Shown here piece after piece: positions 1 through 21,589 of a stretch of DNA of 64,000 nt. The DNA is from Centroberyx gerrardi (taxonomy: Eukaryota > Chordata > Actinopteri > Beryciformes > Berycidae): NCBI RefSeq assembly GCF_048128805.1, contig NC_136002.1, positions 28,640,162 to 28,704,161 of the forward strand. The letters run 5' to 3'. The position numbers and the translations under genes were made by a program. The notes under the pieces were generated by a model. That model saw nothing but the letters and a program-made list of their open reading frames with translations, was not told where the DNA came from and did no database searches. Positions within the stretch are counted from its first letter, which is position 1, and each line of letters starts with the position of its first letter.

Positions 1-310
1 GCTTGATAAGTACAGTTAGCTAGCTATATTTACTGTAGATTACGTCGATCACAAAAAGTGATTTTTCTTTTTGATGATCAACGTGTTAGCTTGATAAGTA
101 ACGTTACAGTTAGCTAGCTATATTTACTGTAAACTACATCGATCACAAAAAGTGATTTTTCTTTCTGATGATCAACGTGTTAGCTTGATAAGTACAGTTA
201 GCTAGCTATATTTACTGTAAATTACATTTGTTCCTTTAGCAGATGCTACGATTGCATTTTTAAGTAGTAGATCACAAAAAGTGCTATTTCTTTCTTATGA
301 TCAACATGTT
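1..310. repeat. About 90-bp tandem repeats at the left edge
   Basis: Three consecutive copies are visible, starting near 1, 90 and 183. Each opens with gcttgataagta, then tagctagctatatttactgta, a gatcacaaaaagtg block, and closes with gatcaacrtgttagc. The third copy is longer because of about 40 extra bases (around 220-265). The array probably continues left of the window. Its closing motif runs straight into the inverted repeat at 320, so it may be the subterminal part of the adjoining transposon. Confidence 0.85.
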
Positions 311-319
311 AGCTATTGA

Positions 320-341
320 CTGTGCCAGTGTTTTTAAGTTG
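320..341 (+). repeat. Left terminal inverted repeat
   Basis: Twenty-two bases that match the reverse complement of 6322-6343 without a mismatch. It directly follows the tandem array whose units end in a related motif. Confidence 0.8.
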
Positions 342-676
342 TCAGGGAAGTGAGAATGCGAAAAGATCAAATTGTCTGAAATCAGCCGGTTCTAGCAATT
401 AATGCCCTTAGACTGAGACCTCCTCCCTAACTTTGAAAAGCAGTTTATTTTGTAATTTCATGAGGTGTGATGAAACATGATTGAGTATACAAACATGATG
501 GAAATAGATGTATTTTTACTCAGGATTTTATTTGAACATATAAAAATACGCCTATGTGTTGTAGTAAGTAAGTCACATCATAAACTATCTTTGTCTGTTA
601 TGTGTATTTTAAAAATAGGCTACTAATGCTTCAATGATACAAAACATTCAGAATTAAATTCATGTACTTAAAGGAA

Positions 677-3600
677 ATGTCATCCAAGTCGCACAAGGCC
701 ATGTCAGAGTCAGAGTGGATGTCTCGCCTGAGAAAATTTGCCAGCACCGGCGTCTGGCCTGCAAATGAGGGCAACAGACCAGCTCCTCGGCAGAAGAAGT
801 GGCACGAGCTGTATCAAAGGGTATGAGGGTTTACTTGACAAAATACACATTAATAAATACGAAATCAAATTTCAGTTCATACACCAATGAAAAGCAGTTC
901 AGGAATAATTTGTGTATTAGATTGTGCTTTTAATAATAAAAAGAAAAGCTGCACTAAAGAGTCCCTGTCCTATGTCCGAATGTGCCATTACTGTTAAATT
1001 AATCGCACATACAAACAGTCTGCTGATGATGTGCAAAAACTATTACAGATTGAGAAATGTCCGATGCAGTCCCGTGGTCAGACTACCTTGCTGGAAGGGG
1101 TGCAGAAGTGCATGTGTGGATTTCACACTCAGAAGGTAACACCAATCAAATAAAGAAGCAGCAATTAAAAAATAAATAAACAGACCTATTTGTATATATG
1201 TTGTATATTATCTCTGTCTTCATTAATTAATATCTGCTGTACAAGTCCTGTTGTACTTCTTTTCTTCGTTGTCTTAAGCAGTCTGCAGCCACTGGACCGG
1301 AGCAGGGAGCGCTGGGGCAGAGTCGGCCTCAGGTGTCAGCCACCTCAAGTCCTGCACCAAGGACTGCATTGAATTTATCGATGGTAAATGGAAAATTAAT
1401 ATGCTGATTATTTAGATTAAGTTCCAAACATTCAAATTTATTTAAATACAAGTATCCCAACACAATATTATTACAATATTATTACAATACAATTACGTCC
1501 TTTCAGTGCTTTACACTGAATTTCTGCCTTTTCATGTCTTTTGTTGTCTTCTTCAGTTTACCAAGCCAAGATTTGGTGGCTCTCACATTCTTGCTGCCAA
1601 GCCAAATCTCAGTGTGGCAAGGAAAGTATCCCAGGTAAATAAAAATGAAGTAACAACGGTTTTAATTGACAAAATTAATACACGTTAACTCCAGTAACTC
1701 ACGGTGAATGCTTTTACAGACACGAGACCCTGTCACTCCAGCCCCAGTCACCAACCCCAATGCAGCAGTGGCCAGTTCCTCTCCATCATGCACCACTGTC
1801 TCAGTAAGTAAAAGCATTACCCATATTTTATTCAGTAAAGCCCCCCCCCCCCCACACACACACACACACATAAAGAAGAACAAACTAATTGGAAAATTAT
1901 GCTGGAAAGCCGTATTTCAATGTAGCAAATAGAGCTCTTGTATGAAATGAGATATCATGAGTTAAAATTGATTATGTTTACAAAGACAATATAATCCGCA
2001 TGATTGTACAGACACAAGACCCTCCAGCTCCAGCCTCTGTGACCAGTTTGGGTGCAGTTGTGGCCAGTCCCCCAGTGCCATGCGCTACTGTCTCAGTAAG
2101 TAATTTTATATTCAATTGTACACTATACAGTATCAGCAGTTTAATCTTGTATGTCTTTTTGTCAATGGAAAGTATGTTAATGTTGTGTTATCTCTGTCTT
2201 TGTCTGTGGAGACTGCTCCCTCAAGGATGCTTACTATGCAAGCTCCATCACCAGTTCAACTTCCCCGTTTGTGGTCGGAGACTTTGCCACCAGAGGACCG
2301 TAAATGGATCGCGACCACCCTCTTCAAAGTAGGGGCCAGTGGTAAGCCACAGCTGCGTGACAACCTGCAGCTCTGGTATTACCCACCTCCACCAGGCCTC
2401 CTGTACCATCAGCCTCCAGCACCAGACAGGTTTTTTTCCCATCCTCTCCTGCTCTGGATGCCCTACAAGCTGTGGAAGGTGAAGGTGGTCTGTCCCAATC
2501 CTTCCTGTGGACAGCATCAGTTGACAGGGGCAGGTCTGCACAAGAGGGCACGGCAGGTTCTGGACATAGACAGGTTCTACAATATGGTGACAGAAACCCT
2601 CACCTGCACCAAGTGTAGAGCCACCCATGTGTCCTGGAGTCAGACTGTCCTGCAACAGCTGGATCTGGCCCACCGGTCTGAGTTCAGGGTCATCCTCACG
2701 CAAAAGTGAGTAAGCTCTCTTTGAACATGCATTTGCAATCTGATCTTCATATGTACTTTTTGTAAAATATTTTTAAATATGTATTGTCTTGCTGTGACCA
2801 AGGTATGCCTGTGACATCCGGGTTATTCGACTGCTGCGGGAGCGAAGCCTGGGCAACAGCCCCACACGGGTTGTTAAACAGCTGAAAGAGAACCACAGCG
2901 AGGAGTGGCTGCAGCGCCTGGCCCGTTACACCACAGAATGTGTAGACGTCCTGAACCGCCCCAGTCTGCTACCCATCACCTTCCAGGAACCCCCAGAACC
3001 TGCAGTGGTGCCAAGCTGGAAGTGGCTCCTCACTGTTTACAGCCAGGACATCCTGACAAGGCTGGATGACATCAAGGCCAGGATAACCTCGACATTTGGA
3101 TCAGTTTTAAAGTTAGATTCTACCAAAAAGGTTAGAGGAAGTCTTGTTTAAATTATGCTGCTGTTCTGAAACATGTTGGGTAACACACATTCACAGAGGG
3201 CTTCTAAATCATGTGTGTTGCAGATCACCAAGAAGCTGGCCGGGACAGCCAAGGGAACAGGACTCTGGCTCACCTCTGTCGGCAATGAGCTGGGTCAGGT
3301 GCTGATCAGTGTGCTGACATCTCAAGAGGGACCTGGGCTGGACCTGATGGCTGCTGACCTGGTCAAGAGATACCAGAAGGCAGGTGTGGATCCCCCTGTC
3401 GTGATGTATGTCGACTGTGGGTGCTGCATTGAGGCTGGGGAAACCAAGCTGAAGACCAGGTTCAGCGGGTGGCCAGATCTCCATATAAGGCTGGACATCT
3501 GGCATTTTATGCGACGGATCGCCTTGGGATGCACTACAGACGCCCATCAGTTGTATCCCATCTTTATGTCACGGCTGTCAGCATGCATCTTTGAGTGGGA

Positions 3601-6122
3601 TGCAGCTGATGTTGCTCTGCTACGCAGAGCAAAAAGGGAGCTGCTTATGTCCCAGGGTCTGCCTGCACTGTCAGATGGAGAAGTCAGCAAACACCTGACA
3701 AAGGAGGAGCTGGCTCTCCATTGCCGGAGGAGGACCCATGGAGAGGAGGCCACTGTCTGCCTCATTGAGCAGCTGCTAAGAGAGCTCATGGGGAACAGTG
3801 GCAACGACTCCCTCGGTGTTCCTCTCCTCGACAGGGAAAGGATGGAGCACATCTGGCGGGTCCAGAAGAAGCATGTCAGGTGCATCCAGGACCTCCCTGG
3901 TGTAGCACTGTATGCAGAGACGGGGAGCATAACCAAAGGGGGTGTGCTTCTCAAGACCTACAGATGTGCCAGAGGCTCCACTTCTCTGGAGTCCTTTCAT
4001 CTACACCTGAACCGCTTCATCCCAGGTTTGTGTCAGTTATGCATATTGCGTACATGTTAAGAAGGAATATTCAATGTATTTGTGTGTTTCCTAAATAGCG
4101 TTGTATCTATTTTTAGGGACCAGTGCCAACAGCCTGAACTTCCAGATATATCTTCTGGAAGGGCTTAACAGGTGGAATCAGGACCGGGCCACTGCTTCCT
4201 TGCCATCAGGCCAGTCATCACTCCGCACCTACACAGGAGACCTGGTTCACAGCGTTAACAGGAACTACGAGAAACTGTTTGGCAGAAAGGTGGTCCCCAC
4301 GTTCTCTCCGCCTTCGCGTTACACTGGTAAGACATATTACAATCCATAACACTGCAGTAATTTTTCCACAGTCTTAGTCTCTGTTTTTGAACTTTATTAT
4401 TCCCTTCATCTCAATTTTTAAGGAGAGCTCATAGGAGTTCAGTACCTGTTCCGGCAGACTGGTCAGGCACTGCAGGAGATGCACCCTGACTTGGATGAGA
4501 CAGCACAGCTACTGGAAGACCTCAATGTGGAGGATGAGGGGTTCTGCGACCTCATGGAGGACCCCACAGTGTTAGACCGGGAGGTCCTTCAGTCACCAAG
4601 CTCCTCACTAGAGACCTCTGCCCCCTCCACCCTGACCGCCAGTGTGGCTTCTGGCTCCTCCACCCTGATCTCCAGCACCTCCCTTCTGTGCTCCACCTCC
4701 TCCTCTAACCAGGTCTCTGCCTCCTCCATCCTGGCACCTGACGTTGCCAGAGCAGACACTCCCTCTACAGAGGCTGAAGCTGCTTGTCGGGATGAGGATG
4801 AAGATAGAGAGATAGTAAGTGCCATTCTATATTTTATCTGATCATTTTTTAAACCAGTTAATACAGGGTTGGACACACATCTATTTAAATGTTTACTTTC
4901 AGACTCTTTACACATATTAGAGCAACAAATATTTATTAAATCAACAGTAGACAATAATTACACATAAAATGAGAGCTTTGCAATAGTAATTTTTTGTTAA
5001 CAATTCTCATCATCATTTGTATAGGCTGTTGACGACCGAAGCGTGCCAGGATTCCAACACGTGGACAAGCTGGCGGAGTACCTGGTGGAGCTCCGGGGTC
5101 AGACAGCCCTGAGTCTGACCAACCAGCAGGCCAGCACAATCATTGCGCTTTGGCAGAGCCTGGACAAGGGAGACAAGGAGCGGGTGGTATATGCTGCTCG
5201 TCACCAGACAAGACTCTTAAGTGGCCGCTTCCGAACACCTAAGAAGCCCACCCACACTCCTGGTGTGGAGAGCACCACCAGATGTGTGCTGGGAGCAAGT
5301 AGCTCACCTGCTCAGTGGCCTGACTGCTGCCGGCTGGTGGAGACCATCTTCATCAGGCTCTGCACCATCCACCCCAGCCCCAAAAAAAAAGGCAGGGGAG
5401 CCCTGTCAAGATGGTCTCTGATCCTCCAGGACTACCACAAGATCAGGCAGCTTGTGCTGGGGAATAGCACGGTGATGCAGGGAACAACACTGCAGCTAGT
5501 GGAGGTGAACCAGACCACCCTCATTCAGTGGCACAACGACAGACAGAAAAGGCAGGAGCTGTCTGTGCTGGTCCAGGGCATTGCATTGCCTCCACCCCTC
5601 CCTGAAGCTGAGGAGCCTCTCCTGGAGGCCAGGACCGTCTCTGCAGAACCTGTGCAACTGAGGGAAGAACATCAGTACAAGCTGCCAGAGAGCACAGCAG
5701 GTCAGGCAAAGCAGAGGCAGACTTCTGTTGGGCTACACCCTATCAGACCCAAGGCAGCAGTGAAGAGGCAGCTGTTTGCCACACCTCCAGTGCCTGGACC
5801 CTCCCTGCAGTTGGCACCACACATCCTCCTACCAGCAGCCCCAATGTTCCAGCCAATGATGCAGGCAGTACCAATGCTACAGCCAGTAGCAATGGTCCAG
5901 GGCACCACCCCGCTGTCTGTCGCCCCTGCCGCTGATCCTGGAACCATCCCAAAGAGGCCATACAGGCGAACTGTGCAGTCAAACACCTGCAAGAAGTGTG
6001 GCCAGTTCCGCACAAATGAGACAGGGCATAGTCAATACAGGGGCAGAGTCTTCTGCCCTCAAACTGAGACTGTCTCCAAAGAGGAGTGGTTGGAGGAAAT
6101 GAGGAGGAGGTTCCTTAAATAA
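677..6122 (+). CDS. Transposase-like cysteine-rich protein (DUF6729-like), 12 exons, about 1,300 aa
   Basis: Exons by splice sites and phase: 677-820, 1049-1135, 1282-1383, 1557-1634, 1720-1803, 2012-2095, 2212-2705, 2803-3130, 3224-4025, 4117-4326, 4423-4814, 5025-6122. They total 3,903 nt with no internal stop. Exon 2 has a CMCGFH motif. Exons 5 and 6 are two diverged copies of one 28-codon exon. Exon 7 carries CPNPSC and CTKC pairs (about residues 285-345), resembling what I recall as DUF6729. A candidate RNase H-like triad is LDSTKK (D about 463), YVDCGCC (D about 531) and RLDIWHF (D about 558), with SLESFH (E about 723) as another option. The C terminus has CKKCGQ...GHSQY...FCP, a zinc-ribbon-like signature common in fish transposon proteins. 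The ATG at 677 is the first usable one; an upstream exon cannot be excluded. Function as a transposase is inferred from the inverted repeats and the acidic residues, not shown. Confidence 0.75.
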
Positions 6123-6255
6123 TGTTAATAGTTTGAGTGTTTTGTGTTGTACATAGTTGTGTGTTGAATGTTGTAAATAGTTGAATGATATATTTTACAT
6201 TTTGAAAATTTGAATTTAATATATTTCCTGTTCTTACAATTGCGTTTTTGAGAAA

Positions 6256-6261
6256 AATAAA
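6256..6261 (+). terminator. Polyadenylation signal of the transposase-like gene
   Basis: AATAAA about 135 bases past the stop codon and about 60 bases before the right inverted repeat. Confidence 0.6.
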
Positions 6262-6321
6262 TATTTTGAAATGTCAAAATTTTCTTGGTTTCTTTTTTAT
6301 GTGTACTTTGTCAGGAGAGTT

Positions 6322-6343
6322 CAACTTAAAAACACTGGCACAG
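6322..6343 (-). repeat. Right terminal inverted repeat
   Basis: Perfect inverted partner of 320-341, lying about 200 bases beyond the stop codon and about 60 bases beyond the polyadenylation signal of the enclosed gene. This is the position expected for the end of a transposon. Confidence 0.8.
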
Positions 6344-6360
6344 AATAGTTAACACATTTG

Positions 6361-6844
6361 ATTGATTTATGAATTTTTATATAAACAGCAAATATTTAAG
6401 TGAATAATACTAATAATAATAGTATAATAATAATAGTATAATAATACTAATTTATGCATTTTATTTATATAGTGCTTTTCAGGGTACTCAAGGACAACAT
6501 AAATCTTAAGATGACACCGAATGACAGAACATCATGTTATAAATCAGAGTAAAAACAATTGCTAAAAAAAATTACTGAAAAGGAAAACGGCGCTGACTGG
6601 ATTCGATCCCGCGATCTTCCACGTACAGCTAATAGAAAACAATGCAATACAAAATGCAACATTTTCGTATGTTTAAAAGCTCCAAAATCTCCTTCCATAA
6701 ATGCAAGAAGTAAGAAATATCTCCAAATTCCCGTTTTTTCTTTCCTTTCTTCATTTTTTCCCTTTTTCTTCCTTTTCTCTTCCCTTTTCTTCTTCCCCCT
6801 TCTCCCCTCTTCTTCCCCTTCTTAGACAGACGATTGTTCCCCAG
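6361..6844. other. Intergenic: simple repeats and a tRNA-like fragment
   Basis: Contains an (ATA/AAT)n tract at about 6405-6450, a common fish repeat tail (atttatatagtgcttttc, about 6463-6481) and a long pyrimidine tract at about 6725-6825. On the minus strand about 6580-6620 includes a T-arm-like gggatcgaatcc, perhaps a remnant of an unrelated tRNA. No gene seen. Confidence 0.5.
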
Positions 6845-6882
6845 CCTGAACGCAGCGCCTTAGACCGCTCGGCCATCCTGAC
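6845..6882 (-). pseudogene. tRNA-Leu(CAG) 5' half
   Basis: Thirty-eight bases identical to the 5' half of the intact tRNA-Leu(CAG) genes downstream, from the first base through the CAGG of the anticodon loop. Homology then stops abruptly. The break coincides with the end of the inverted duplication arm, so the duplication boundary cut this gene in two. Confidence 0.85.
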
Positions 6883-7679
6883 TATCTTTACCACGTTGTC
6901 AGACAGATTTAAAGGGGCATTCAGTAACGTATTAGCCTATTTATTTATATTAGTATCGATTATTTGATCGATTGTGTGCGCGCGCGCATGTACACGCAGT
7001 ACGTGAGAGAAGCACAGGCCAACATCTCCACCAGTAATATTTGTCTGTCACGTCAGTTACGTCTTCTTTTTCAGATACATTATCCACCATCCAAAGCCCA
7101 CTGTCTAAGTGGAACTCAGATATAAAAATCATCCGACAAAAACACTTGTAAAGGCTGTTGGATTTATTGTATGATTATATATGATACACATTACCCCACT
7201 TGTTAAGTACAAATATCTCAAATTTAATAAAGTAACAACACTGTTTGTAGGTTGGGTGATGCAATCAGAAACTGTAGTACAATAGTATAGCCAAATGATT
7301 ACAAGTTCAAGACCATGGAATATTTCTGAATTACAATTAATATTCCTGTTGTGATTTTATGTTTTTGCATTAATAGAAAATGAATTCGTACTAATAACTG
7401 ACTTCATGTCACATAATCCAGTGGGTTTCGGTATTGTGCGATCATGACTCAACAGTTTGCAGGTTTTTGTTCCAGTAGCTGATTTTATTCATTCACACAC
7501 CTTGAGCCATGGAGGAGGAAACAATTAGTGGAAATCAGCTGGTGTAGTGTTTGATTGGCAGAAAACCCTACATGCTACTGAGTTGCAATGACATACAACT
7601 GACATAACAAATTCACCCAGCTTTTCAAACACACTCCTACTACAATTAAGCGTACATCATTATTTTAAACATGAGAGGA

Positions 7680-7867
7680 GGGTGCACCGTTCCTGGAGAT
7701 ACTGCAATACCAGGTCGATGCGTGGAGTGGACGGAGCAAGCCCCTATTCCATCTCCCTATTCCAAAAATCAATTTAATATATGGTCCCCGGGTAGGGGAC
7801 GTATCAGATATTAAACTGATAAGAACAGATACTACACTTGATCTTAGCCAAAAGGCCGAGAAGCGAT
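7680..7867 (-). ncRNA. U2: U2 spliceosomal snRNA
   Basis: 188 nt, full length. It shows the atcgcttctcggcc 5' end, the branch-point recognition element gtgtagtatc, the Sm site atttttgg and the stem-loop IV sequence tattgcagtat. It differs from the other U2 copy at one base in loop IV (c here, t there). The 80 bases upstream are almost identical to those of the other copy, as expected for a shared PSE-containing promoter. Downstream, gtttaaaataatga resembles the 3' box used for snRNA 3'-end formation. Likely functional; U2 base-pairs with the intron branch site in the spliceosome. Confidence 0.96.
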
Positions 7868-8602
7868 ACCGTTAAACTGACAGAGGTAAAGAGGTCATTC
7901 TCGGCGATATCAGTCTGACTGACGGGTTTGGACCGAAATTATAACTTTAAGGCCATTCAAGAAACAACGAACAAAAGTACGCTAACCTTAAACGTGTCAA
8001 ATGTCATATAACCACAGGAAAATATGTTATTTATAAGAAACGAGGGGCTCGCGAATGCAGCTTCTAGGCTCGTCCTGGTCACGTGGTGCGTTCTAGTCCA
8101 ATAGGAAACAGAAACATCGGAGGAATCGAAATCCCATTTACAGCTACGTTAGCAGGAAATGTGCGTATATTTTGTACTAATCTGAATGATAAAGATGCAT
8201 TGTAACTGTGTATCTGAACAGAACAGTCTGCTGGCGAAGAAAATATATATTTTCCGTACGCTCCAATAACTCGCTTCACAAAAACAAATGGAGCTCTAGC
8301 AGTATCTAGTGGAGAATCAAGCTAACTGCAGTGTGGTTTGCTTGTTGCACAATTAACCAAGTCTGGACGAAATTTCAACATGTAACTGCAGAAACGTGCT
8401 CTCACTAAAATAGACATATCAATGAATTGACAGTGTATTGTAAACAGCTTGCACGAGGAAATGAAAACCAGCACAACTATAGTTTATCTTACTCAGGCAG
8501 GAAGGTATGAATTGCACAATACGATGCATACTTCACGGTCTACAAACTCTGTTAGGTAAGCGTTATCTTTCTCTGCCACCCCGATGAAAATATCAAGTGT
8601 TT

Positions 8603-8808
8603 CGTGTCTGTGTAGATTTATTACAGTCATCCAGGTAGTAAGATGAAGAAGAATACAAAAAAATAGAATCAAAATTCACTGGACTTAAAATGAAGAGTTG
8701 AATACGTTTTACCACTCATCGGAGAGGGAGATACTTCTTCAGTTCTAATTAGTGCTAGTCTTCTTTAACTGTTTTAAGTCCAGTGGATTTTGTTTCTATT
8801 TTTGGGGG
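8603..8808. mobile_element. SINE-like or composite short insertion with 15-bp target duplication
   Basis: The 15-mer atatcaagtgtttcg flanks the insert at about 8588-8602 and 8809-8823. The insert contains inverted arms (about 8656-8690 and 8772-8807) centred on cactggacttaaaa, and the gaagtatctccctctccgat block often seen in fish genomes. A 15-bp duplication suggests LINE-style insertion rather than cut-and-paste. It lies just outside the end of inverted arm 1. Confidence 0.6.
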
Positions 8809-9460
8809 ATATCAAGTGTTTCGGTTTCCACTTGTTAACCAACGAGATGGGAGCTGGCATAGCATATACCGAGCTATTCAGAGCAGGAGGCTGCGAAAAT
8901 AAACGTTAATAAACAGTAAATTCGGACAATAATCATGTTATAAACGTTAAACAGTCCAAATTAAATCCTCTTATCTAAGTAACGTTAGTAAAAGAACTTA
9001 CCAAAAGATGTGTTCAATTGTTCACCTTTGGTAGGAATAATCCAATAACTGACCGGCAGTCTGTTTCACCAGCTAGCTAAAAGTTTGGTCGTACATTAGC
9101 ATCTCCACTGAAAGTTAACGTTAGCCTACATTTCAACTAGTTATTTTGACACTAAAAGTGTGTCTTTGTTTAGTTGCATCGTTTAGTTTCGTTGCTTAAT
9201 CGTAACTAGCGATGTGCAAGGTGTCAAGAGTCCACTATACAAATTATTTTGAGAGGAGGTTGTACCCAATTCAGTGGTCGGTCTGTCCACGGACCACTGG
9301 TCGCTAACACGGACCACTGGTTACTACGGTTACTACCACTAGGGGCGCTGAAGCTCGTGGTCGGTTATGGTCCGGACCAGTTGTTCAGTTCAGCGGTCTG
9401 GGATGAAGATGGTCTGCGGTTGGAGTGGTCTTGTGGTCCTAATCGACCTCACACCGGTGC

Positions 9461-10620
9461 ATGGCGGCCACGACAGCAGGTGAGTCACTTGCATTTCATG
9501 TGGTATTTTGAAGACAGTATTAAACGGACTGGTCGTTGGGGTTGCGAAATAAACATAACGTTATTTATGATAGTGTTGGCAACTTGGGGAAATTATTCAG
9601 TGCTGCACACTCTTTACTCCGATGCAGTTTTTAGATGCGACCAGCAGCAGCAGCTCTATAGCTCGCTCAGTTGGTCGGTCGGTTGGTCCACAAAAAGTTC
9701 CTAACGCGTGTATGCATGCGCGTACGTGGTCGCAACTATTGCGAATTCGCGCTTGTTTTAGTACAGTTGGCTAAATGTATTTTTCTGAACAACTGACTTT
9801 ACCGACTAGACCTGCACTCATCAACCCAGGTGTGCGTTCACTCTTGCCATTGCGAAAATTAACGTTCAGGTTAAGTTAACACTGAATATGCTTGCTAATG
9901 CTAGTTAGCATTAACGTTAGCTACAACATCAGCAAGTTATCACGACGCAGCTGCGTCTGCGAGAGGGACGGACCGGGGGGAGGAGCTGCTGGCTCGGTGA
10001 AATGCTGCATGTCACTTTCTGACTCTTGTAAATAAATAAAAACAAATACAACAGATCTGTCTTTTCTAAAAACTTTTTTTTTTTTTTTTTCGCCTTATAG
10101 TTGAAAGTTGGCTGCAGGTAAACCACTTGATTTCATGTGGTGTATGTATATTTTGAACAGTGTTTGGGCCATTTTTTATATTTAAGGAAATGTCAGTATA
10201 CCAATAATTAAACCAAGTTGTACTATTATTTAGAGGTCAATACTGCTTTAACAACGCTGGAGGACTTATATAAAATAGAAAACAGCAATTGCAGATAAAA
10301 AAAAAAAAAAACAGAGACCATATCAACAGAGTCCATTTACAGTATTCTGTGCACTTCAGGGATGATGATGGTGGTAAGCAAAATTACCATAGCTGTTCAT
10401 CTTTGTTAAAATTATGGCAAATTTCTGTGCCACAGCAGTCTGTATTCTTGGCTTAATGTGTTTATTTTTTCACATTAGTTTTCATTTTTCCCACAGACAC
10501 TTTTTCCATACCATGTCACTGCCAGCTGAAGTTGTCAACCCGAAGCAACTGGCACTGTCCAAAATGCAAATCCACCATACAGAGGAAGCACTCATTTGAA
10601 AATCATCTTAAAAAAACACG
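9461..10620 (+). CDS. Candidate first two exons of a small C2H2-type zinc-finger gene
   Basis: ATG at 9461 opens MAATTA and is followed at 9480 by a strong donor (cag/gtgagt). A matching-phase acceptor (ttttcccacag) lies before 10497, and 10497-10620 encodes about 41 residues including PCHCQL, WHCPKCKS and FENHLKKTR, which look like a C-x2-C ... H zinc finger, followed by a donor (cacg/gtaaga). Phase agreement across the intron supports the model. No convincing third exon was found: a frame after the acceptor near 10660 stops after about 10 codons. I do not recognise the protein. It could be a lineage-specific gene, part of a mobile element, or chance. Confidence 0.35.
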
Positions 10621-11753
10621 GTAAGATCATCAAAATATAACCCAGATTTTTTCCCTTCAGTTATCAGTATGTTCCATGGTTGTTTACATAGAATGGCCTA
10701 TGTAAAACACATTTTAAAGTGAATTGATAAACTACTAGGCTATATCTATTGCCCATACCTTTTTTGTTTTAACATAGGCTCCTGTTATGTCTTGACAGTT
10801 GCTTACGCTATCTATTTTTGCCCAACACTTGTAAATTATTTTTCTAATTAATTCTTTATTTCATTTAGTTCCATATTGGTTCTAATCTGTTAAATGCAAA
10901 GTACAAAAAAAGTACTATTTAGAATTTTTAAATGAACTCCACTTGCAGTGGGTTGTAACACTATATCCCACTACAGATGTTTAGGCTACTTGTTTTTACT
11001 CTAAAATACAATGTTTTTCATGGTGGCTGTGATCCTAAATGGTTGTTAAATTATGATCTTGGTCCAAGAATGAGAAATATTATTTTAGCAGATAGTTACG
11101 TTTTCGCCCAGGTTAATGTCTTAATTTATGCGACAGCGAGAGGAAAAAAACAGGATATACCTAGCTAATTTAACATCACCAAACATAAACAAGTATGCTA
11201 TCTGGTACAATTAAGTAGGACTGATTTGTAGTTTGTCTCCCATACTACATCTACAGACAAGCCTATACATCTAGTTAGATGTTAAATACCTGCGTTTTTA
11301 GAACTATAAAAACTTGACCTGATAAATGAAAACAGACAGTTTCAAATACCTCCATTAGTGCTGGAACAACGGGCTGTTGTGTTGTTGGTACCCAAGTGTG
11401 AAATGGCCACTACATTCATACAGTCAGCACCATCAAAACTCTATTGAAACTAATTCCACACATTTGATTAACCTGCCTTTAGAAAATACTGTGATGAGGA
11501 TAAGTACAAGTTAGTAAATGTAAAAAGAAACCTATTTTCCTATTGATTTCATCCATCATATCTGCTGGATCTCTGCTGTGATATAGCTCGCTCCTCTTTG
11601 TTGTAAAAATGTGACTTTTATTATTTATGTCAACTACAGTTAAGCCAGGTAGTGCCAGATACCTGTCCATGTTGTTTTAACTACCGTTCACTGAAGGATA
11701 TTGATGAATACATGACTGACTCCCCTTTTAAATATGGTAATGATGTACATGAG
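10621..11753. other. Gene-poor spacer
   Basis: AT-rich sequence with no supported gene. The segment about 11471-11545 (cctgcctttagaa through cctattttcctattg) reappears inverted at about 17215-17284, another trace of inverted duplication in this tRNA/U2 region. Confidence 0.5.
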
Positions 11754-11836
11754 GTCAGGATGGCCGAGCGGTCTAAGGCGCTGCGTTCAGGTCGCAGTCT
11801 CCCCTGGAGGCGTGGGTTCGAATCCCACTTCTGACA
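11754..11836 (+). tRNA. tRNA-Leu (anticodon CAG)
   Basis: 83 nt, a type II tRNA with a long variable arm. It has the 5' gtcaggatggccgagcgg A-box region, cgttcaggtcgc anticodon arm, gggttcgaatccc T arm (B box), and acceptor stem gtcagga/ttctgac with discriminator A. A TTTT terminator begins 8 bases after the 3' end. Same sequence as the copy at 13791. Confidence 0.97.
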
Positions 11837-12203
11837 GCAACAGTTTTGCACTGGAGGTGGAACCAGGCAAGTAGCTGTGAGACATGATAAGGTGGTAAAC
11901 TGTGATAATACCCATTGGTGACTGTGTACAGTCTCCCATACTACATCCACAGACAGTGTACAGTCACCAATGGGTAAAACATGGAATTGAGTAAATCACA
12001 AAACAAGATAGAGTCGACTTGACTGTAGGGTGATATGATTAGATGTGAAATAGCATTCGGTTATGCAGACCTCAGCTTTTGCAGAATGAGCACATTAAAG
12101 TGTTGTATCAGTGACAGTTTCCCTTGGTATTTGTAGCAGCACTGACGCCAGTCTATCCTCCCATCGGCTGCTGGTTTGATAATCTGGAGTTTGAAAAAGT
12201 TGT

Positions 12204-12274
12204 TGCATTGGCCGGGAATCGAACCCGGGCCTCCCGCGTGGCAGGCGAGAATTCTACCACTGAACCACCAATGC
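12204..12274 (-). tRNA. tRNA-Gly (anticodon GCC)
   Basis: 71 nt. Minus-strand features are the gcattggtggttcagtgg 5' part, cctgccacgcgg anticodon arm, ccgggttcgattcccgg T arm and acceptor pairing gcattgg/ccaatgc with discriminator A. T5 follows on the minus strand a few bases downstream. It is convergent with the tRNA-Leu at 11754; the same pairing recurs at 13791/15625. Confidence 0.97.
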
Positions 12275-12378
12275 AAGTTCTGTGGGTGAACTGGACCCTC
12301 ACAGCCTGACTGACAGGCAACTGACATGTTTCAAGTGGGGTCCAGGTGTAACCTGGAGAGATGTGTCTTCAGTCTCCG

Positions 12379-12409
12379 GCGCTTTTCTGCGTTTTGGCTA
12401 AGATCAAGT
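12379..12409 (+). pseudogene. U2 snRNA 5'-end fragment (about 30 nt)
   Basis: The last 18 bases (ttttggctaagatcaagt) are identical to U2, and the preceding bases (cgctt, ttctgcg) still resemble U2 nucleotides 3-13. Homology ends sharply at about U2 position 30, where a LINE-like open frame region begins. No U2 promoter precedes it. Confidence 0.65.
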
Positions 12410-12890
12410 TTAAGTGAAGGTCTCGCGCGATCACTCCAGGTGGCGACGGCGACATCGGCTACTAAGCAGTCGGCTGTGTCCGGACTGAAGAATACGCTGC
12501 GTGTTTCTTGGATGAGTGTGGAGGAACAGATGAAGGACCGTGTCAGTTTTCTGCCTACAACAGAATACGTTGGAGAGGTTTTATGATGTGTCGTTCTTTA
12601 CAGTGTCGAAGAAGGAGGAGGTGAAAGGACTAGCCGTTAAGCTAGCTCACACCGCTTTGAAGTATTTCAGTGTTGAAGCCTTGTGTCGGAATGGTCATCG
12701 TATAGTCACTGTACACATGAATAACCCATGGATAACCAAGGAGACCATAAGATATTTCCTGGGTAGATACACCACAGTGCTGCCGGGGATGAAGGAGATT
12801 CGGGACGCCCTGGGGATTTGGACCGGTAAACGGCAGTTTCGAGTGCAACTAAAATAAGACGCTGATGGATATCACGGCGGCATAAAAAAG
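12410..12890 (+). mobile_element. ZCCHC3-like ORF1 fragment, probable Keno/Tx1-type LINE 5' end (broken)
   Basis: The frame around 12540-12857 encodes GHRIVTVHMNNPWITKE, FLGRYTTVLPG and ALGIWTGKRQFRVQL, matching the conserved central region of fish ZCCHC3-like proteins, many of which are LINE ORF1 products rather than host genes. The upstream part is in a different frame, so the copy is not intact, and no zinc knuckles or reverse transcriptase follow. Joining of a U2 5' fragment to ORF1 in the same orientation is what a U2-targeting Keno-type LINE would leave. The family name is inferred from this junction. Confidence 0.55.
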
Positions 12891-13790
12891 GAAACAAAAC
12901 AATTGTACCCAATTAGCCATATTCCGAAAATGTCCATCACAAGAATATCTCCATCCCTTGTTTTCCTGACAAATCTACCGAACAAAATATACTAAGATAA
13001 ACTATGCAGCAATGCCTGCAAAAATATATTCCACTAATTAGGCACAATTATTTTGTTTTCTTTTTTATGGTGGAAGCTAAATATCTTGTCATGGATATTT
13101 TGAAATATAGCTGATGCTCTTATCCAGAACGACTTGCAATGAGTGCAAAACATACAACAAACAACCCACAGTAATGTTTAACTACAGTTTATCATGTCAC
13201 ACTCTCCAAGTTGTTCTGTTATGGGTTTATATCAGATCAAGAAAGGAGTTTAGTCTGTAGCTGATAACTCAAAAGCTGGTCAGCTGAGTGTTTGTGTGTG
13301 TTCATGTTAAACTGAGTGGTATTCCCCTTTAATTACAGAAAGAATAATAATTCTGGGGGTGTGTCCAGTCTGTTGGCATCGAGAGAGAGTAAGCAGGAAC
13401 CTTTTGCTTCATACATTTATGTTATAGGTTAATTAAGTATTAGCAACAACATCATATCCCCTTCTTAAATAGTTTTTAACTTCTTCAGCTTTGCTTCAGT
13501 GCAGCCATGAAACAGAAAATGCGCCCTGCTTGGACACATTTAGTTGATTTGCTGGTAGAGCTAAGTTAGCTTGTCAGCCAGTCTGTAGCTAGTACAAAAA
13601 TAACTCCCAGCCTGCCAGTGTTGGCTATGAATAACACTGGCAGTGGAAGTTTATTGCCTTTGCAGCTGTTAAATTCTAACATTTCCCTAACATTGTCGGG
13701 TGATTTTTATATTTGAGACTACTTAGACAGTGGGCTTCATTAATGTTACTGACTGCCCCTTTAAGTCTGTCTGATAGTTAGGCACATGCA
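12891..13790. other. Spacer; conserved tRNA-Leu upstream module at its right end
   Basis: No gene seen. The last 50 bases (actgcccctttaagtctgtctga and following) recur upstream of every tRNA-Leu copy at 16976, 22436 and, inverted, 6883-6930, so the duplicated unit includes the 5' flank. Confidence 0.5.
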
Positions 13791-13873
13791 GTCAGGATGG
13801 CCGAGCGGTCTAAGGCGCTGCGTTCAGGTCGCAGTCTCCCCTGGAGGCGTGGGTTCGAATCCCACTTCTGACA
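13791..13873 (+). tRNA. tRNA-Leu (anticodon CAG)
   Basis: 83 nt and identical by eye to the copy at 11754, with gttttgc downstream supplying a TTTT terminator. Its downstream flank (about 13918-14058, caccaatgggtaaaacatgg) matches that of the 11754 copy, so the two arose by segmental duplication. Confidence 0.97.
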
Positions 13874-15624
13874 GCAACAGTTTTGCACTGGATGTATGTG
13901 ATGTGTAGCTGTGGGAAATGATACGGTGGTAAACTGTGATCATCAGAGGGTGAACAGTCACCAATGGGTAAAACATGGAATTGAGTTTATCAGAAATCTA
14001 CAAGATATAGTGGACTTGACTGTAGAGTGTTATTAGATGTGAAACAGTATTCAGTTGCAAGGCTGTACGTTAACTTTTTTTGCACATAGCACTGGTGCTA
14101 CAGAGGTTGATAGTTTTGTAGCACAGGCCACAAAATTGTAGCACGTGTATAAAATGTCTGTTACCATCTCTAAAAACAACCACAAGTAGTGCAGTTCATC
14201 ACTTAAACAGGTATGTGACTGGCAAAGGACATTAATGTTGCATACAGGGCACACAAAATCCAAACCTTAACAAGAAATGTTTTCAGACAAACATTTTCTT
14301 TATTTGCCCATAATGGTAAATTGCAGGGACATAACAACTGTATACAAAACATCAATATATTACGCTTCAAATTAGGGGTGTGAATCTTTGGGAATCTCAC
14401 GATTCGATTTGATTCCGATTCTTGGGTGTCCGGATCGATTCAGAATCGATTCTCGATTCAAAACCGATTCTCGATTGAATGAATAGAAAAGGGGGCACTA
14501 TTTTCAGTCTCTTGCTCCAGTATACTGTGTGCCAAACCATTCACTGGTGTCCTTAGTCCACTGAAACACAATATGAAACATAATTGGCAATTAAGATAAA
14601 TGGTCCTCAGCCTTTTTACTTTAAAAAGTTAACTGCATTAATTAATGAATAAATTAATTTGAAAGCATCTTACAGTCTCCTGCCTGTATGAGAATAACAA
14701 AATGAGGGGGAGGCAGAGTGTGTTGTTATTAACGTTCTGTCGCCACAGTGGAGAGCAGCCTCTCTGCTGCACCGTTCTCTCCGGGGAAAGCCATCGTTGT
14801 CCAAGACGCTGAGTGGGCGCAGGGTTTTTGAGGTGAAACAGACTGAGCACAGAGTTATTTTCTTCACCTCAGAGTTGGTTTAAGTTGTTTAATGCTGCAG
14901 TGTGTGTTGGCCAGCCGGTCTCGTTTGTTATTGCTGATCGCTGCTCCGCTCTGCTAACGTTAGTTTCTGAGTGACGGCGTAGAAAGTTCACAATATACTT
15001 CACGTTCATCTCGTAAAGGTAATTATTTAGTCATTAAATCAAAACATGTTTGCAACCGCTTGCCTTTTTTGAAGATGAACTACAATATAACTCTAGCGTG
15101 TGCACGCTGTAGACTGTCCGGGTGCTACACTGCCCTCGGAGGAAACGGCGTAGAGGCCTATGCGGTTGCATAATTCCTATGCAACCGCATAGGAATTATG
15201 GGATTGTTCCCTAGGAATTGTAGGAATTGGTGTTGGATGTATGGACTCTACGCAGCCGGGGACATGATTTTTAATCGCACGATAGACTACAACTAGCAAG
15301 TAGAATAGCGATGCACCATCGATTCAACTCACACACAAACCGTCACTTCACACAAACAAAGCGGCGCCACACACGCAAAACTGTATCGCACGGGTGCTAC
15401 TGCGGTAAATTCATTCATCGCACAGACCGATTTTTTCGTAGCACGTGCGACATATATGTCGCACTGTACAGCCCTGAGTTGTGTGAAAACTGTTCTGGTA
15501 TTCAGACCTCATCTTATAGGTATTGTAGAAGTGATAGTTTCCCTTGACATCTGTAGCAGCACTGACACCAGTCTATCCTCCAGTCGACTCCTGGTTTGAT
15601 AATCTGGAGGTTGAAAACATTTAT
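13874..15624. other. Spacer with hAT-like terminal sequence and a small hairpin
   Basis: Positions about 14373-14480 (ggggtgtgaatctttggg, then repeats of gattcgattc and its complement) look like a terminus of a common fish hAT-type element; its partner end was not identified. A 15-bp perfect inverted repeat with a 7-base loop lies at 15157-15193 (arm cctatgcggttgcat). No gene seen. Confidence 0.45.
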
Positions 15625-15695
15625 TGCATTGGCCGGGAATCGAACCCGGGCCTCCCGCGTGGCAGGCGAGAATTCTACCACTGAACCACCAATGC
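15625..15695 (-). tRNA. tRNA-Gly (anticodon GCC)
   Basis: 71 nt, same sequence as the copy at 12204, and again with its 5' flank (ggacc ctcacagcctgactgaca on the plus strand) conserved. A T4 stretch follows on the minus strand. Likely functional. Confidence 0.97.
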
Positions 15696-17021
15696 AAGTT
15701 CTGTGGGTAAAGTGGACCCTCACAGCCTGACTGACAGGCAACTAATGTGTGGAAATGAGCAGATTTCAATTTAGGTTTGTAGGTTTTCCTAGCCTGGTTC
15801 CAGAATCGTGTCCCCCCAGCTTTCCAGATTTTGTCAAGTGATTCAGAGAGTCTGGTGTTTCCCTCATCAACTAAAGTTTGAACCATTTGTGCAACGATTT
15901 TTCAACGGCATTTTGGCAGAATACATTTGTGGGTGGTGTTAGGAAAGGTCGTGGAATGGGTAATGCCAGTGATTCTCAGATGTGTGCCATTGTAACTCAG
16001 TCGCATGTAGGTTTTCATGTCAATCAAACACTACACTAGTTACTAATCATTTCCCCCCGTCTGGTTCAAGGTGCATTAATGAATGAAATCAGAAAACAGA
16101 TGCTGTAGTGTTTGGTTGGAACAAAAACCTGCAAACTGTTGAGTCATGATCTCACATGACTGAAACCAGGGGTTGACAATGAGCAAAAATGTCCACTGAC
16201 TCTCAGGGCCAGTAACTTTCCAAATTCACTGGCCCTGCCATTAAAGCCACTGGCCCTGAAATAATTTGTTGTTTCGGCATTATTTTAACATTAAATTTAT
16301 TTTCTCCTCATGTAAGGGTTCTTATCACTGTGTATATGTGTTCAATGATGGTTAGAACTATTGTAAACTCTAAAAAAATATAGACCAAAATAATAATATG
16401 GGCATAAATAAGTAACTGTTGTATAACTATTTTGGGGAGATGTATTTAGCCTAGTAGATAATTAGGATTAAGTCAACTGATTCCCTGTTCACTAGAAGTC
16501 TGGTGCTATGTAACATTAGCCTAAAAAATCGCTAGGTGGCAACTGTTTACCAAGCTAACATTAGCCACTGACAGGGTAACGTTATCTTGGGCTCACCGGT
16601 GTGTGGCAACTCTGCAAGGAAAGCTACGTTTTTGCTACAGCATCACCCTCTGTTTGGCTAGCTCGCTACAAACTTTGTATTCAACCTTACTGTCACAACT
16701 TTTCCACCTTGACTCACTTGTTAACGTATGCGGGCATGGATCTGCATAGTTTACAGTAGACTTGGCCGTTTTCTTTATCACAGCCGAGCCACGGCCACCG
16801 CTCTAACCAATGAGGTAAGAAGGCTCTTTTCCTCTTTTTCTCATAGTCGTCTGCACCCTATTTTTTTTCTTCAGGTGTTCTTTGCTTGGATGCTTTTTTG
16901 CCTGGCGTTTGACCAGGAGCAGGGGGTTTTAAAAAAATGGCAGCACTAAATTACAAACTTAACTTGTTATTATATAGCTGACTGCCCCTTTAAGTCTGTC
17001 TGACATTGGGGTAAGTGAAGT
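15696..17021. other. Spacer; no gene seen
   Basis: About 16155-16260 carries several copies of a ctggccctg motif on both sides of a short spacer. The remainder is unique-looking and AT-rich, ending in the tRNA-Leu upstream module (about 16976-17021). Confidence 0.4.
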
Positions 17022-17046
17022 CAGGATGGCCGAGCGGTCTAAGGGT
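17022..17046 (+). pseudogene. tRNA-Leu 5' fragment
   Basis: The normal upstream module leads into gtcaggatggccgagcgg and then tctaagg, after which the tRNA sequence is replaced by tRNA-Gly flanking sequence. It is a chimera created by deletion or rearrangement between tandem tRNA units. Confidence 0.85.
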
Positions 17047-17060
17047 TTAATAATCTGGAG

Positions 17061-17127
17061 GTTGAAAAGTTTATTGCATTGGCCGGGAATTGGCCGATTC
17101 CCGGCCAATGCAATAAACTTTTTCAAC
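17061..17127. pseudogene. tRNA-Gly 3'-end fragments in a head-to-head palindrome
   Basis: 17061-17090 and 17097-17127 are inverted copies of the same tRNA-Gly 3' part plus flank (ttattgcattggccgggaat), differing by a single extra A, with a 6-base loop (tggccg). The stem is about 30 bp. A further middle piece (gggcctcccgcgtggcagg) lies at about 17393-17411. The gene is destroyed. Confidence 0.85.
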
Positions 17128-17411
17128 AACCAGATGATCAAACCAGCAGCCAACTTTAGGAGAGACTGACGCCATTGCTGCTGCAAATGTCATGGGAAAC
17201 TGTCACTACTACAACAACAGGAAAATAGGTTTCTTTTTACATTTGCTAACTTGTACTTATCACAGTGTGTTATTGTTCTAAAGGCAGGAATTGTTCTTTC
17301 TGGTGTTGTTCCTTGTTCTTCCTTTTGGAATGTGTGAAGAAACTCACAGTTGGAAAGCCATTCACTGACCAACTAGCAAGCAAACCAAACTTGGGCCTCC
17401 CGCGTGGCAGG

Positions 17412-18441
17412 CTCTTCTATGTTTCTAACCTCAGTTAGCCAAGTGTTTGTCTGCAGTAACCAAGTAGTAAGTTGTGTGTGCCACAAGGTGGCGCTAGTTG
17501 ATTAGAAATCAATAAGATGAAGCAGATGGCTTGACTGTAGAGTGATATGATTAGATGTGAAACAGCAGTCTGTTATGTTAAACAGAAGAAGTAACAGACC
17601 TCAGGATGCATTCTTTGGAAATCAGAATTGAGTATTTAACAAAGCAGTTAAAGGATACGGCTGGTGTTTTTAAATACATTTCTTATCATCAACAAATCCT
17701 ATGAAAATAACAAAATAAACAATGCATTTGCTCTACTCCCATTACTTTCCGACTTCCCATGTACCATTTTTAGCCTTTAAACTGGAAGTCATTAGCTCCA
17801 ATTGTAAGCTAAAAACCTTTAAATACAGCTCACAAAGACATAGTCTCAATTTTAAAAATCGCTAACTGTTACCATGGAAAGTCAGGCTACTGTAGTTATT
17901 ACGAAATCAAATTCAAATGGGAACAAATTCTTCATTACGCTGGGGACTATTTTCGGTGTTACGGAACTACTTTCCTGAGATGGAAAACGTGTTTATGGTC
18001 GGCTTATAAAGTTGTTTGAGGAAAAAGTCGGCTGGCCCGGTGCATCGCAATGATGAAATATGTTGCCCAGAGCAACGGCATGGCTCTGTGACGTGTTTTT
18101 AATAGTTTCTTTAATACAATGGAGTTCTATGGCTACTGGGACATGGCTTTATTGGGCATCGGCTACATGGACGAGAAATGCATTAAAAAACACCAGCCTT
18201 ATCCTTTAAATAAAATAATGTAATAATACAAGATAAGATACAAAATAACTTTTATAACTTTCCTGGGGAAATTACATTGTTGCAGCACCAAAAGGAATAC
18301 AATTCAGCAGGGGAAAAGACCAATAGAATATACTTGCAAAAACAATGCAAAAAACGAATATCAAAATTTGCTATGAACAGACTAATGACACAAAAGTGGA
18401 AAAAGTTTAGTCTACTCGTTATCAATTCCACGTCAGTTGCC
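17412..18441. other. Spacer, duplicated in part downstream of the 22480 tRNA
   Basis: About 17336-17640 (including agccaagtgtttgtctgcagtaa and tgccacaaggtggcgctagt) matches about 22680-22920. This shows that the tRNA units at 17022 and 22480 share a recent ancestor. No gene seen. Confidence 0.5.
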
Positions 18442-18450
18442 TGTCAGTCA

Positions 18451-18951
18451 TAGCCTGGTAAGACCATCCTGATCACATGACCTCACATTCTGTTTCGCTT
18501 CACGGATCAGTCTGGACTTCCAGCCACCCACATCGATTTCTTGAAATTACAATGTAACCGGGCCAATCAGGGACTGCGTCGTAGTTGATGACGTGAAATA
18601 CAGGCCACTGCTGGCAAAACAGTAATGGCGTCTCCCGAAGCAATGAACGTTAACGTTAACGTTTGTAGAGTAAACACAGCCATAAGTGCAGTTATTGCAG
18701 AAATAGACTCAATAACAACAATTAAACAAGAACAACAGTATGCACTAGCGGAGTTTCTCGGCGTAAAAAAAGGTTCTCGCCATTCTTCCAACTGGATTTG
18801 AATTTGGATTCGCTGATTGGCTGAAGGAGTTTGTCTGTCAAGGCAAGTACTCCCGCCCACTGAAATCGATGTGGGCGGCTAGAAGTCCAGACTGATCCGT
18901 GGAGCGAAACAGAACGTGAGGTCACATGATCAGGATGGTCTTACCAGGCTA
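18451..18951. mobile_element. MITE with about 95-bp inverted repeats and 9-bp target duplication
   Basis: The element starts tagcctggtaagaccatcc and ends in its reverse complement (ggatggtcttaccaggcta). The arms stay alike to about 18542 and 18863 (acatcgatttc / gaaatcgatgt). It is flanked by the identical 9-mer tgtcagtca at 18442-18450 and 18952-18960. The empty site can be recognised at 19133-19150, where the same tRNA-Gly flank is uninterrupted. Long inverted repeats with 9-bp duplications suggest a Mutator-like (MULE) non-autonomous element. It has no coding capacity. Confidence 0.85.
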
Positions 18952-18992
18952 TGTCAGTCAACTTCTGAGGGTCAAATATCCCCACAGACCTT

Positions 18993-19008
18993 GCATTGGT
19001 GGTTCAGT
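18993..19008 (+). pseudogene. tRNA-Gly 5' fragment
   Basis: gcattggtggttcagt follows the usual tRNA-Gly upstream flank and is then replaced by unrelated sequence. The next duplicated unit at 19129 carries a longer fragment. Confidence 0.7.
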
Positions 19009-19178
19009 TACTTTCTTCCTGTACCTTTAAATGTCAGGAAAACAGAATAGAAGTAGAATAGAAATACTTTATTTTTTTCAGTCAAAAGTGGAAAACCACA
19101 ACAACAAGTTTAAATAGAAATCTACACGTCAGTTGCCTGTCAGTCAGGCTGTGAGGGTCCAATTGACCCACAGAACTT

Positions 19179-19208
19179 GCATTGGTGGTTCAGTGGTAGA
19201 ATTCTCGG
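19179..19208 (+). pseudogene. tRNA-Gly 5' half
   Basis: The intact 5' flank (gtcagttgcctgtcagtcag through cagaacttgc) leads into gcattggtggttcagtgg and tagaattctcg, then diverges before the anticodon. Confidence 0.85.
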
Positions 19209-19524
19209 GTGCCGGGCGCGGGCCAGCCGCGGATAGTTGTAATTCATTGACAGCCAATCAGATTGCAGCATTTTTTGTCTGCTGTCCTTGGTAATGAATT
19301 TTACTTTCCCTGTCCATGGAACTGAACTGCTGCATTAGTTATTCAAAATTTCACATCAGAGGCAGGTTAGAATCTACATCAGTTCAGTCTGAAATGTGTA
19401 TATCATTTTTTGTATAGAGAATTGTATAGAGGAAGGCCCAAAGTATAGTATGGTGCTCTGAGACACACTCTCTGGTCAACTGCCGCATGCAGTGGAACAA
19501 GTCCAACTTCACAACAATGTCCTC

Positions 19525-19956
19525 ATTAAAGTCGAGATGAAATTTCGAGAGTATCTAACTTCCGTATCGTGACGTATTTCCGAGTGAAACAGGAAAGACA
19601 GGCGGGACATAACGTTGGGAGGAATTTGATTTGAACGTTGAAAAGTGGGTGTGCTGTTGCTAGCTAGCTAACTAATGAATCTTAGCCTCTTAGCTCTGTG
19701 GCTAAAAGTTGAAGATTGATTGATGGGTGGATGTCATGATATTATTGGTTGAAATTAGTTACGGGCATGCTTACGTAAGCACACGGCATATTTTGTTTTA
19801 CAGGAAGAAAACATGATTGAATTTTGATATAAGAATACAATGAAATTGATTTTTGGTATTTTTTTTGGCATATATTGTTAAATAGGTGCACAGTATGACC
19901 GGGGATGTGATCTAAAAGGGTTAAAAAGGCATTTTTCATTTCATCTCGTCTTTAAA
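19525..19956. mobile_element. MITE with about 19-bp inverted ends
   Basis: attaaagtcgagatgaaat at 19525-19543 pairs with atttcatctcgtctttaaa at about 19938-19956. No coding sequence inside. Target duplication was not resolved. Confidence 0.55.
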
Positions 19957-20890
19957 CTGTTTTCGTGACGCGCAGGTGTTGGCCAAATTGCCGGAAGTTG
20001 AATCTGAAACAATGGCCTCAGTGGTCCTCCAGGAGTCCCAGGATAGGTGGTCATTTGGCTTTGGGTCCAACACCTTGAAGGCAGCACAATAGTCCCTGAA
20101 AAAATACAATTAATACAAAACAAAAAAAAAATATCGCACAGCGCACAAAAGGTGGCCGCTCCCGAAAAGCGCTGCAGCCGGCGTTTTTTTCGTCAGAATG
20201 GAGCGCTTTCAAAAGTTGAGAAATGTTTTTTTTTTTTTTAGTTGAGAAATGTTCAACTTTTCAGAAAAGCCCGGGTGACGTGAACCGCTTTTTCCCAGCC
20301 GACCAATCGCGATGACAGAGACGCTGGTCGTTTTCCATAGCAACAACAAATATGGAGAAAGTGAAAGTGCCGGTGGAGAAATTGGACGTTGTAATAAGTG
20401 AATTTCCGTTACCGCAACAGCGATCTTAAAGGCAGTATGGATTATACTGGACATGTATTGGAAATATCTGGTAAGCCTTTGCTTGTTGCACAACACTGTT
20501 CTGTCTGTTAGAAGTGCTAACCAGCTGGTTAGTGAGCTAGCAGCTGCTCAGCTAACGTCAGGTGACGTTGCCGTGATCCGCTTTTTATTTCTCCTCACAA
20601 AAAGCGCTCCAGGCAGCGCCTTTTCCACATCAAAAAATGCTGTGTGAACGCAGCCTTTTAATCTACCTTTCTCTCTCTTCTCTTTCTTTTTCTCTTCTTT
20701 CTCTCTCTCCCTCTCGCCTCGGCCGGGTGTCGCCACGTGTCGCCACTTCTGTATCCGTCGTTTCAAATTAAAAGCCCTCTGCAGAGTCGTGTAATTACGA
20801 CTTCATGACATTTCATAAAATTCTGAAGCAGCGGGCAATAATTCTGCAGTGGCGGGCCGCCGCTGCAAAATGTATATAACGTAAACTCTG
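19957..20890. other. Spacer, possible further degraded short element
   Basis: About 20150-20660 has related but imperfect ends rich in gcgctgc and gagcgcttt with ttttt runs and a central gacgttgc region, suggestive of an old MITE. No gene seen. Confidence 0.35.
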
Positions 20891-21589
20891 TTTTCATCGG
20901 GGTGGCAGAGAAAGATAACGCTTGCCTAACAGTACGGTCAGTAGCTGGTTTGACCTCCATGCCCTTTTGATTTTTTCATGGAGTTTGTAGACCGTGAAGC
21001 ATGCATCGTATTGTGCAATTCACACCTTCCTGCCTGAGTAAGATAAACTATAGTTGTGCTGGTTTACATTTCCTCGTGCAAGCTGTTTACAATACACTAT
21101 CAATTCATTGATATGTCTATTTTAGTGAGAGCACGTTTCTGCAGTTAGGTTACATGATGAAATTCCGTCCAGACTTGGTTAATTGTGCAACAAGCAAACC
21201 ACACTGCAGTTAGCTTGATTCTCCACTAGATACTGCTAGAGCTCCATTTGTTTTTGTGAAGTGAGTTATTGGATCGTACGGAAAATATATAATTTATTCG
21301 CCAGCAGACTGTTCTGTTCAGATACACAGTTACGTTGCATCTTTATCATTCAGATGAGTCCAAAATATACGCACATTTCCTGCTAACGTAGCTGTAAATG
21401 GGATTTCGATTCCTCCGATGTTTCTGTTTCCTACTGGACTAGAACGCACCACGTGACCAGGACGAGCCTAGAAGCTGCATTCGCGAGCCCCTCGTTCCTT
21501 AAAAATAACATCTTTTCCTGTGGATATATGGCATTTTACCGTTTACCTGTCAGTGGACTTTGTTCGTTGTTTCTTGGATGACCTTAAAG

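Follow-up and report, generated by a model that had tools for sequence, protein, structure and literature searches.

An intact element of Centroberyx gerrardi is best explained as a recently mobile Dada-tL DNA transposon in a tRNA-Leu gene

The window analysed here, a 64-kb stretch of the Centroberyx gerrardi genome, carries part of a 7,173-bp element (C6:28639835-28647007), which is almost certainly a complete Dada DNA transposon that belongs to the Dada-tL group and was recently mobile. The element begins 327 bp to the left of the window and has its right end at position 6846, while a first-pass annotation of the same DNA had delimited a unit at 320..6343 and called it unplaced; its left boundary actually lies outside the window, and placement is provided by the protein motifs with respect to the Dada superfamily and by the target with respect to the Dada-tL group. 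The analysis documents the anatomy and both ends of the element, its target duplication and empty site, the conserved catalytic residues and a second, near-identical insertion that arose independently, and a formerly unplaced transposon is thereby placed. Membership of the Dada-tL group is probable on the basis of target site and orientation. The Dada superfamily, its target and its multi-exon gene are known already; new, but modest, are this Dada-tL family in this fish, the naming of DUF6729 and the perfect 22-bp internal inverted repeats. The element is an intact candidate for studying DNA transposons that pick a single base of a multicopy gene for insertion.

A split tRNA-Leu gene, with one part on each side of the element, defines the ends (Table 1). 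Nucleotides 30-83 of this tRNA gene are located in the left flank (L021) at window positions -380 to -327, position 0 being the base before the window, and nucleotides 1-38 match the minus strand at 6882-6845, where the match breaks off at the published Dada-tL site; 36 of these nucleotides are tRNA-derived, and the remaining two (GG) are the element end matching by chance. Subtracting the element and one target duplication from the flanks yields an empty site that equals an intact tRNA-Leu gene in 83/83 bases, and the stretch 6845-7175 shares 88% identity with an intact unit at 22517-22186. Window 6847-6863 reads exactly TGAACGCAGCGCCTTAG, the described target of Dada-tL elements, which insert opposite to the tRNA (PMC8869645); here, the element gene is on the plus and the tRNA on the minus strand, the opposite orientations that the group requires. 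Insertion into a multicopy small RNA gene with a target duplication of 6-7 bp, a trait of the Dada superfamily, is thereby found for the window element.

Table 1. Features of the Dada-tL element and its insertion site (window positions unless a contig is given).
Feature	Position	Strand	Basis or remark
In-window part of Dada-tL element	1..6846	+	ends from two halves of interrupted tRNA-Leu and C4 copy with identical ends
Left target site duplication TGAACGC	C6:28639828-28639834		left of window
Right target site duplication TGAACGC, 7 bp	6847..6853	+	published Dada-tL duplication GCGTTCA (PMC3706591, Results)
Interrupted tRNA-Leu-CAG, 5' part, nt 1-36	6847..6882	-	nt 30-83 left of window
94-bp tandem repeat array, element 5' non-coding part	1..227	.	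sequence
Left internal 22-bp inverted repeat	320..341	+	646 bp inside left end
Transposase exon 1	662..820	+	gene model
Transposase exon 2	1049..1135	+	gene model
Transposase exon 3	1282..1383	+	gene model
Transposase exon 4	1557..1634	+	gene model
Transposase exon 5	1720..1803	+	gene model
Transposase exon 6, tandem duplicate of exon 5	2012..2095	+	gene model
Transposase exon 7, DUF6729 start, CCCC zinc motif	2212..2705	+	gene model and motifs
Transposase exon 8, first catalytic D (residue 468)	2803..3130	+	gene model and motifs
Transposase exon 9, second D 536, DxxH 563, E 728	3224..4025	+	gene model and motifs
Transposase exon 10	4117..4326	+	gene model
Transposase exon 11	4423..4814	+	gene model
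Transposase exon 12 with stop, C-terminal CCHC zinc motif (residues 1262-1284)	5025..6122	+	gene model and motifs
Right internal 22-bp inverted repeat	6322..6343	-	503 bp inside right end
Right copy of sub-terminal inverted repeat AATCGTCTGT	6826..6835	-	left copy outside window

Terminal inverted repeats are absent, as the element ends CAGCAGCCGCC and, in reverse complement, GGCTGGGGAAC are unlike each other. A 10-bp sub-terminal inverted repeat, AATCGTCTGT, is present at an offset of 12 from the left and 11 from the right end, and a shared run of this length at similar offsets was reached by 5/5000 random pairs; in the Results of PMC3706591, sub-terminal repeats of 7-9 bp (7 and 9 bp) are described for the Dada U6 and U1 groups only. 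The 3' end of the element (6344-6845) gave no match to Rfam. Within it, 6590-6625 on the minus strand resembles by eye a tRNA T-arm (B-box-like), a spot equally without Rfam match, and the non-coding stretch 6403-6496 resembles a dispersed repeat, as 36 of 42 genome matches are partial and cover about this stretch.

The gene between the ends was modelled from sequence with 12 exons, 11/11 introns of the GT-AG type, 3,918 nt including the stop and 1,305 codons with no internal stop, in agreement with the initially proposed gene of 12 exons and about 1,300 codons. Introns in the transposase gene, a Dada trait with the exception of the Perkinsus elements, are thus predicted for the window element, and the number of exons, initially considered unusual, is normal for Dada because Dada-U6_DR has 11 predicted exons (PMC3706591, Results). 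Exons 5 and 6 plus flanks (1708-1811 and 2000-2103) are tandem duplicates with 73% identity over 104 bp.

The acidic motifs and cysteine clusters previously noted as RNase H-like are present and resolve into a DDE triad (D468, D536, E728), a DxxH after the second D (DIWH at 563), an N-terminal CCCC zinc motif (C292, C297, C330, C333) and a C-terminal CCHC zinc motif (1262, 1265, 1275, 1284). The counterparts in Dada-U6_DR are CCCC at 389, 394, 429 and 432, D567, D635 and E811, and CCHC at 1359, 1362, 1372 and 1381 (PMC3706591, Results). Identical spacings are found from the fourth cysteine to the first D (135), from the first to the second D (68) and within the CCHC motif (3/10/9), whereas the CCCC spacing is 5/33/3 versus 5/35/3, with the gap being 33 instead of 35 residues, and the distance from the second D to the E is with 192 versus 176 residues 16 residues longer. 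Among relatives, this latter distance is mostly 176-194, with extremes of 167 and 215.

A DDE triad in an RNase H-like fold, as characteristic of Dada, is predicted with the fold derived from a modelled relative (P0007), the triad of which has D231 in strand 1, D299 following strand 4 and E491 where a late helix begins. The best structural match of this model by Foldseek and VIA is ISCth4 (PDB 6xgx, 6xg8), which we take to be an IS256-family enzyme; the match is partial, with a Foldseek TM-score of 0.20-0.23 of the 825-residue model and an identity of about 10%. The predicted fold of the transposase would accordingly be IS256-like. A sequence search of PDB with 486 residues of the core gave no match (best E 0.13).

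With respect to domain assignment, Pfam recognizes DUF6729 (PF20499) at residues 219-447, encoded by exons 7-8, with an E value of 6e-98. Of the families for which profile searches had been suggested, DUF6729 is therefore found, but neither KDZ nor MULE, since up to E 10 the window protein shows just one noise match beyond DUF6729. Among eight relatives scanned, 8/8 match DUF6729 and, with E values of up to 5 admitted, 0/8 match KDZ or MULE. At E up to 1e-3, a protein search retrieved 298 proteins; the best 120 among them are nearly all from fish, include amphioxus, sea urchin and priapulid, and carry PF20499 with one exception; a profile search retrieved 259 proteins, the best 120 of which add molluscs, sea star, crinoid, more sea urchins and a hemichordate. 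The matches listed are mostly just named 'uncharacterized', 'hypothetical' or 'DUF6729 domain-containing', and in the literature searched no paper was found that mentions DUF6729 or PF20499. In viral contigs, no relative was confirmed. A protein of Danio aesculapii (P0130) agrees with Dada-U6_DR from the first cysteine to the E (first C to first D 178, first to second D 68, second D to E 176) and is, judged by these distances, probably a Dada-U6 protein; its best alignment with the window protein has 44.6% identity over 891 residues. A tree of the relatives covers 63 of 168 proteins, none a confirmed Dada-tL reference. DUF6729 corresponds to the zinc-finger region of Dada transposases, which gives the Pfam entry a meaning.

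Three related loci were found elsewhere in the genome: one copy on C4 and, at C6:30.76-30.78 Mb, two copies with deletions. The C4 copy (7,189 bp), with the same ends as the window element, differs from it by 13 mismatches over 7,171 aligned bases, with 20 gap columns in addition, and in the coding part by four substitutions in 3,918 bases (two silent, two replacing); as its exon 12 has a 2-nt deletion and thus a frameshift, only the window copy of the two near-identical copies is intact. The C4 copy interrupts a different tRNA-Leu gene, again at this very base; its target duplication is perfect and its empty site agrees in 83/83 bases, while the 500-bp flanks of the window element outside the tRNA have no match (right) or only a 66-73% match to repeated sequence (left) in the C4 stretch. 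The C4 copy is an independent, recent insertion, and because a near-identical copy occupies the same base of another tRNA-Leu gene, the element has moved recently, in line with the early impression of an intact, recently mobile transposon.

The copy at C6:30.76 Mb, on the other hand, is internally deleted and flanked by tRNA-Leu on the right and tRNA-Gly on the left, indicating that targeting is not always clean, as tRNA-Leu is present on one side only; copies of Dada-tL_DR with mixed flanks are reported from zebrafish (PMC3706591, Results). Over 1.68 kb, its right flank has 95.9% identity to that of the window element, similar to the 96-97% seen for its main element pieces, and therefore it may be a duplicate of the window insertion and not a separate one. 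The two deleted copies (C6:30756431-30780078, L024-L026) have opposite orientations, and both miss the equivalent of window 3505-3628. Whole or nearly so, the 3' end (6344-6846) occurs at a minimum of four loci, at least the window, C4 and the two C6 copies, a lower bound as 40 of 121 first-look candidates were scored.

A genome search with exon 9 gave 51 matches. Two of them have 100% identity, four pieces in the C6 cluster have 95-99%, and the others range from 76% down to 30%, which indicates several other Dada lineages or remnants in the same genome. Dada-like coding pieces with at most 76% identity are located at L030-L036, L039-L041 and L044-L047, with several long open frames on C3 and C23. 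For 12 of 14 such loci, a search of the flanks for targets with Rfam gave none at gathering score, the flanks of about 1.5 kb being too short for the ends.

The perfect 22-bp inverted repeats, initially taken as the exact bounds of the unit, are real but internal, with the true ends located 646 and 503 bp farther out. With up to five mismatches allowed, the window has no further such site (BLAST of the repeat against the window, E 6e-6 to 1e-5). Across the genome (779 Mb), at least seven exact 22-mers exist, every one found being inside copies of this Dada-tL family: one pair in the window copy, one pair in the C4 copy and three in the deleted C6:30.76-30.78 Mb cluster. This count is a lower bound, and the family assignment covers the exact matches; at three mismatches there are 15 more sites (six for a control pattern), one of which, L027, was scanned for tRNAs and has none. 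The exact 22-mer was not found in viral contigs. Lengthening of the inverted repeat outward is weak, as it is reached by 62/1500 AT-matched random pairs (3/300 in a less strict test).

A separate 6,024-bp element, nested inside an older Dada-tL copy and terminated by the 22-bp repeats, would fit the perfection of these repeats and the gene between them, but is highly improbable. At the outer edges of the repeats, a target duplication was looked for and not found; the C4 and window copies align across the full 7.17 kb, inside as well as outside the repeats; and no exact 22-mer was found beyond the copies of this family. As termini of the element the repeats were ruled out, with no flanking target duplication and the true ends located in tRNA-Leu, and a shifted end with TTAA or TA as the duplicated target was abandoned once these ends were known. 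Long internal inverted repeats of Dada elements are not described in the main text of PMC8869645, in which the terms 'inverted repeat' and 'sub-terminal' are absent, or in the Results of PMC3706591, although deposited sequences may show them. The repeats may be extra transposase or regulatory sites. Tentatively, and with less than even probability, the 22-bp repeats might constitute a second recognition tier in this lineage, as putative transposase-binding or enhancer sites like the internal inverted repeats of the P element, or the borders of an inner unit that was formerly independent and gave rise to the present element.

A domesticated host gene, the other option initially raised, would account for the long intact frame and the retained conserved residues and has a precedent in dDada, a Dada-derived domesticated gene of Cyprinoidei (PMC8869645). 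In dDada, however, the triad and DxxH are often mutated (PMC8869645), whereas both are intact in the window protein, and two near-identical copies, one of them frameshifted, occupy separate contigs and separate tRNA-Leu genes, each bordered by a perfect target duplication of its own, which leaves domestication a negligible probability. Just as little is left for a KDZ (Kyakuja-Dileera-Zisupton), MULE/MuDR or unplaced superfamily: the C/DxxH motif class is shared with MuDR, hAT, P and Kolobok (PMC9587614), but the Pfam scans detected neither KDZ nor MULE in the window protein or the eight relatives scanned, and residue spacing and target agree with Dada.

To the right of the Dada-tL element, window 6847-22562 is a small-RNA-gene neighbourhood in diverged repeated units, with two U2 snRNA genes (7677-7867, minus; 21667-21857, plus), three intact tRNA-Leu-CAG (11754, 13791, 22480) and two tRNA-Gly-GCC (12202, 15624). 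At 17020-17144, a tRNA-Leu is cut after nt 25 and followed by a 100-bp stretch 88% like its own reverse complement, with tRNA-Gly end fragments. A MITE-like unit with 92-bp inverted ends, 93% alike, occupies 18449-18953, and an inverted repeat pair of 32 nt, 94% complementary with 81 nt between, is located at 8659-8803.

Dada elements insert into multicopy RNA genes, apparently by reading the DNA sequence (PMC8869645). For the window element, the host would express and splice a 12-exon mRNA coding for a DDE transposase of 1,305 residues, which would bind the element ends at the 10-bp sub-terminal inverted repeat, possibly with the 22-bp internal repeats as helper sites. The zinc motifs, if indeed binding zinc, may read TGAACGCAGCGCCTTAG in tRNA-Leu-CAG genes, and a presumed cut-and-paste reaction by the DDE transposase would then insert the element opposite to the tRNA, with duplication of TGAACGC. 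The element is probably active at present.

Among known systems, Dada-tL_DR of zebrafish, as described in the Results of PMC3706591, shares the target base in tRNA-Leu-CTG, the 7-bp duplication GCGTTCA, the orientation opposite to the tRNA, the lack of terminal inverted repeats and the occurrence of some copies with tRNA-Leu on one side only; it differs in that the listed zebrafish representative has 10,355 bp versus 7,173 bp, and the window element resides in a different host and has 22-bp internal inverted repeats. The Dada-U6 group with Dada-U6_DR (same Results) has in common the multi-exon gene, the DDE triad, DxxH, CCCC and CCHC motifs with identical or nearly identical spacing and short sub-terminal inverted repeats, but targets U6 snRNA with a 6-bp duplication and has the shorter distance between second D and E given above. 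ISCth4, finally, would resemble the window transposase in the predicted DDE fold, a likeness that is functional only, and is unlike it in sequence, as expressed in the low identity, and in size, with 355-402 versus 1,305 residues.
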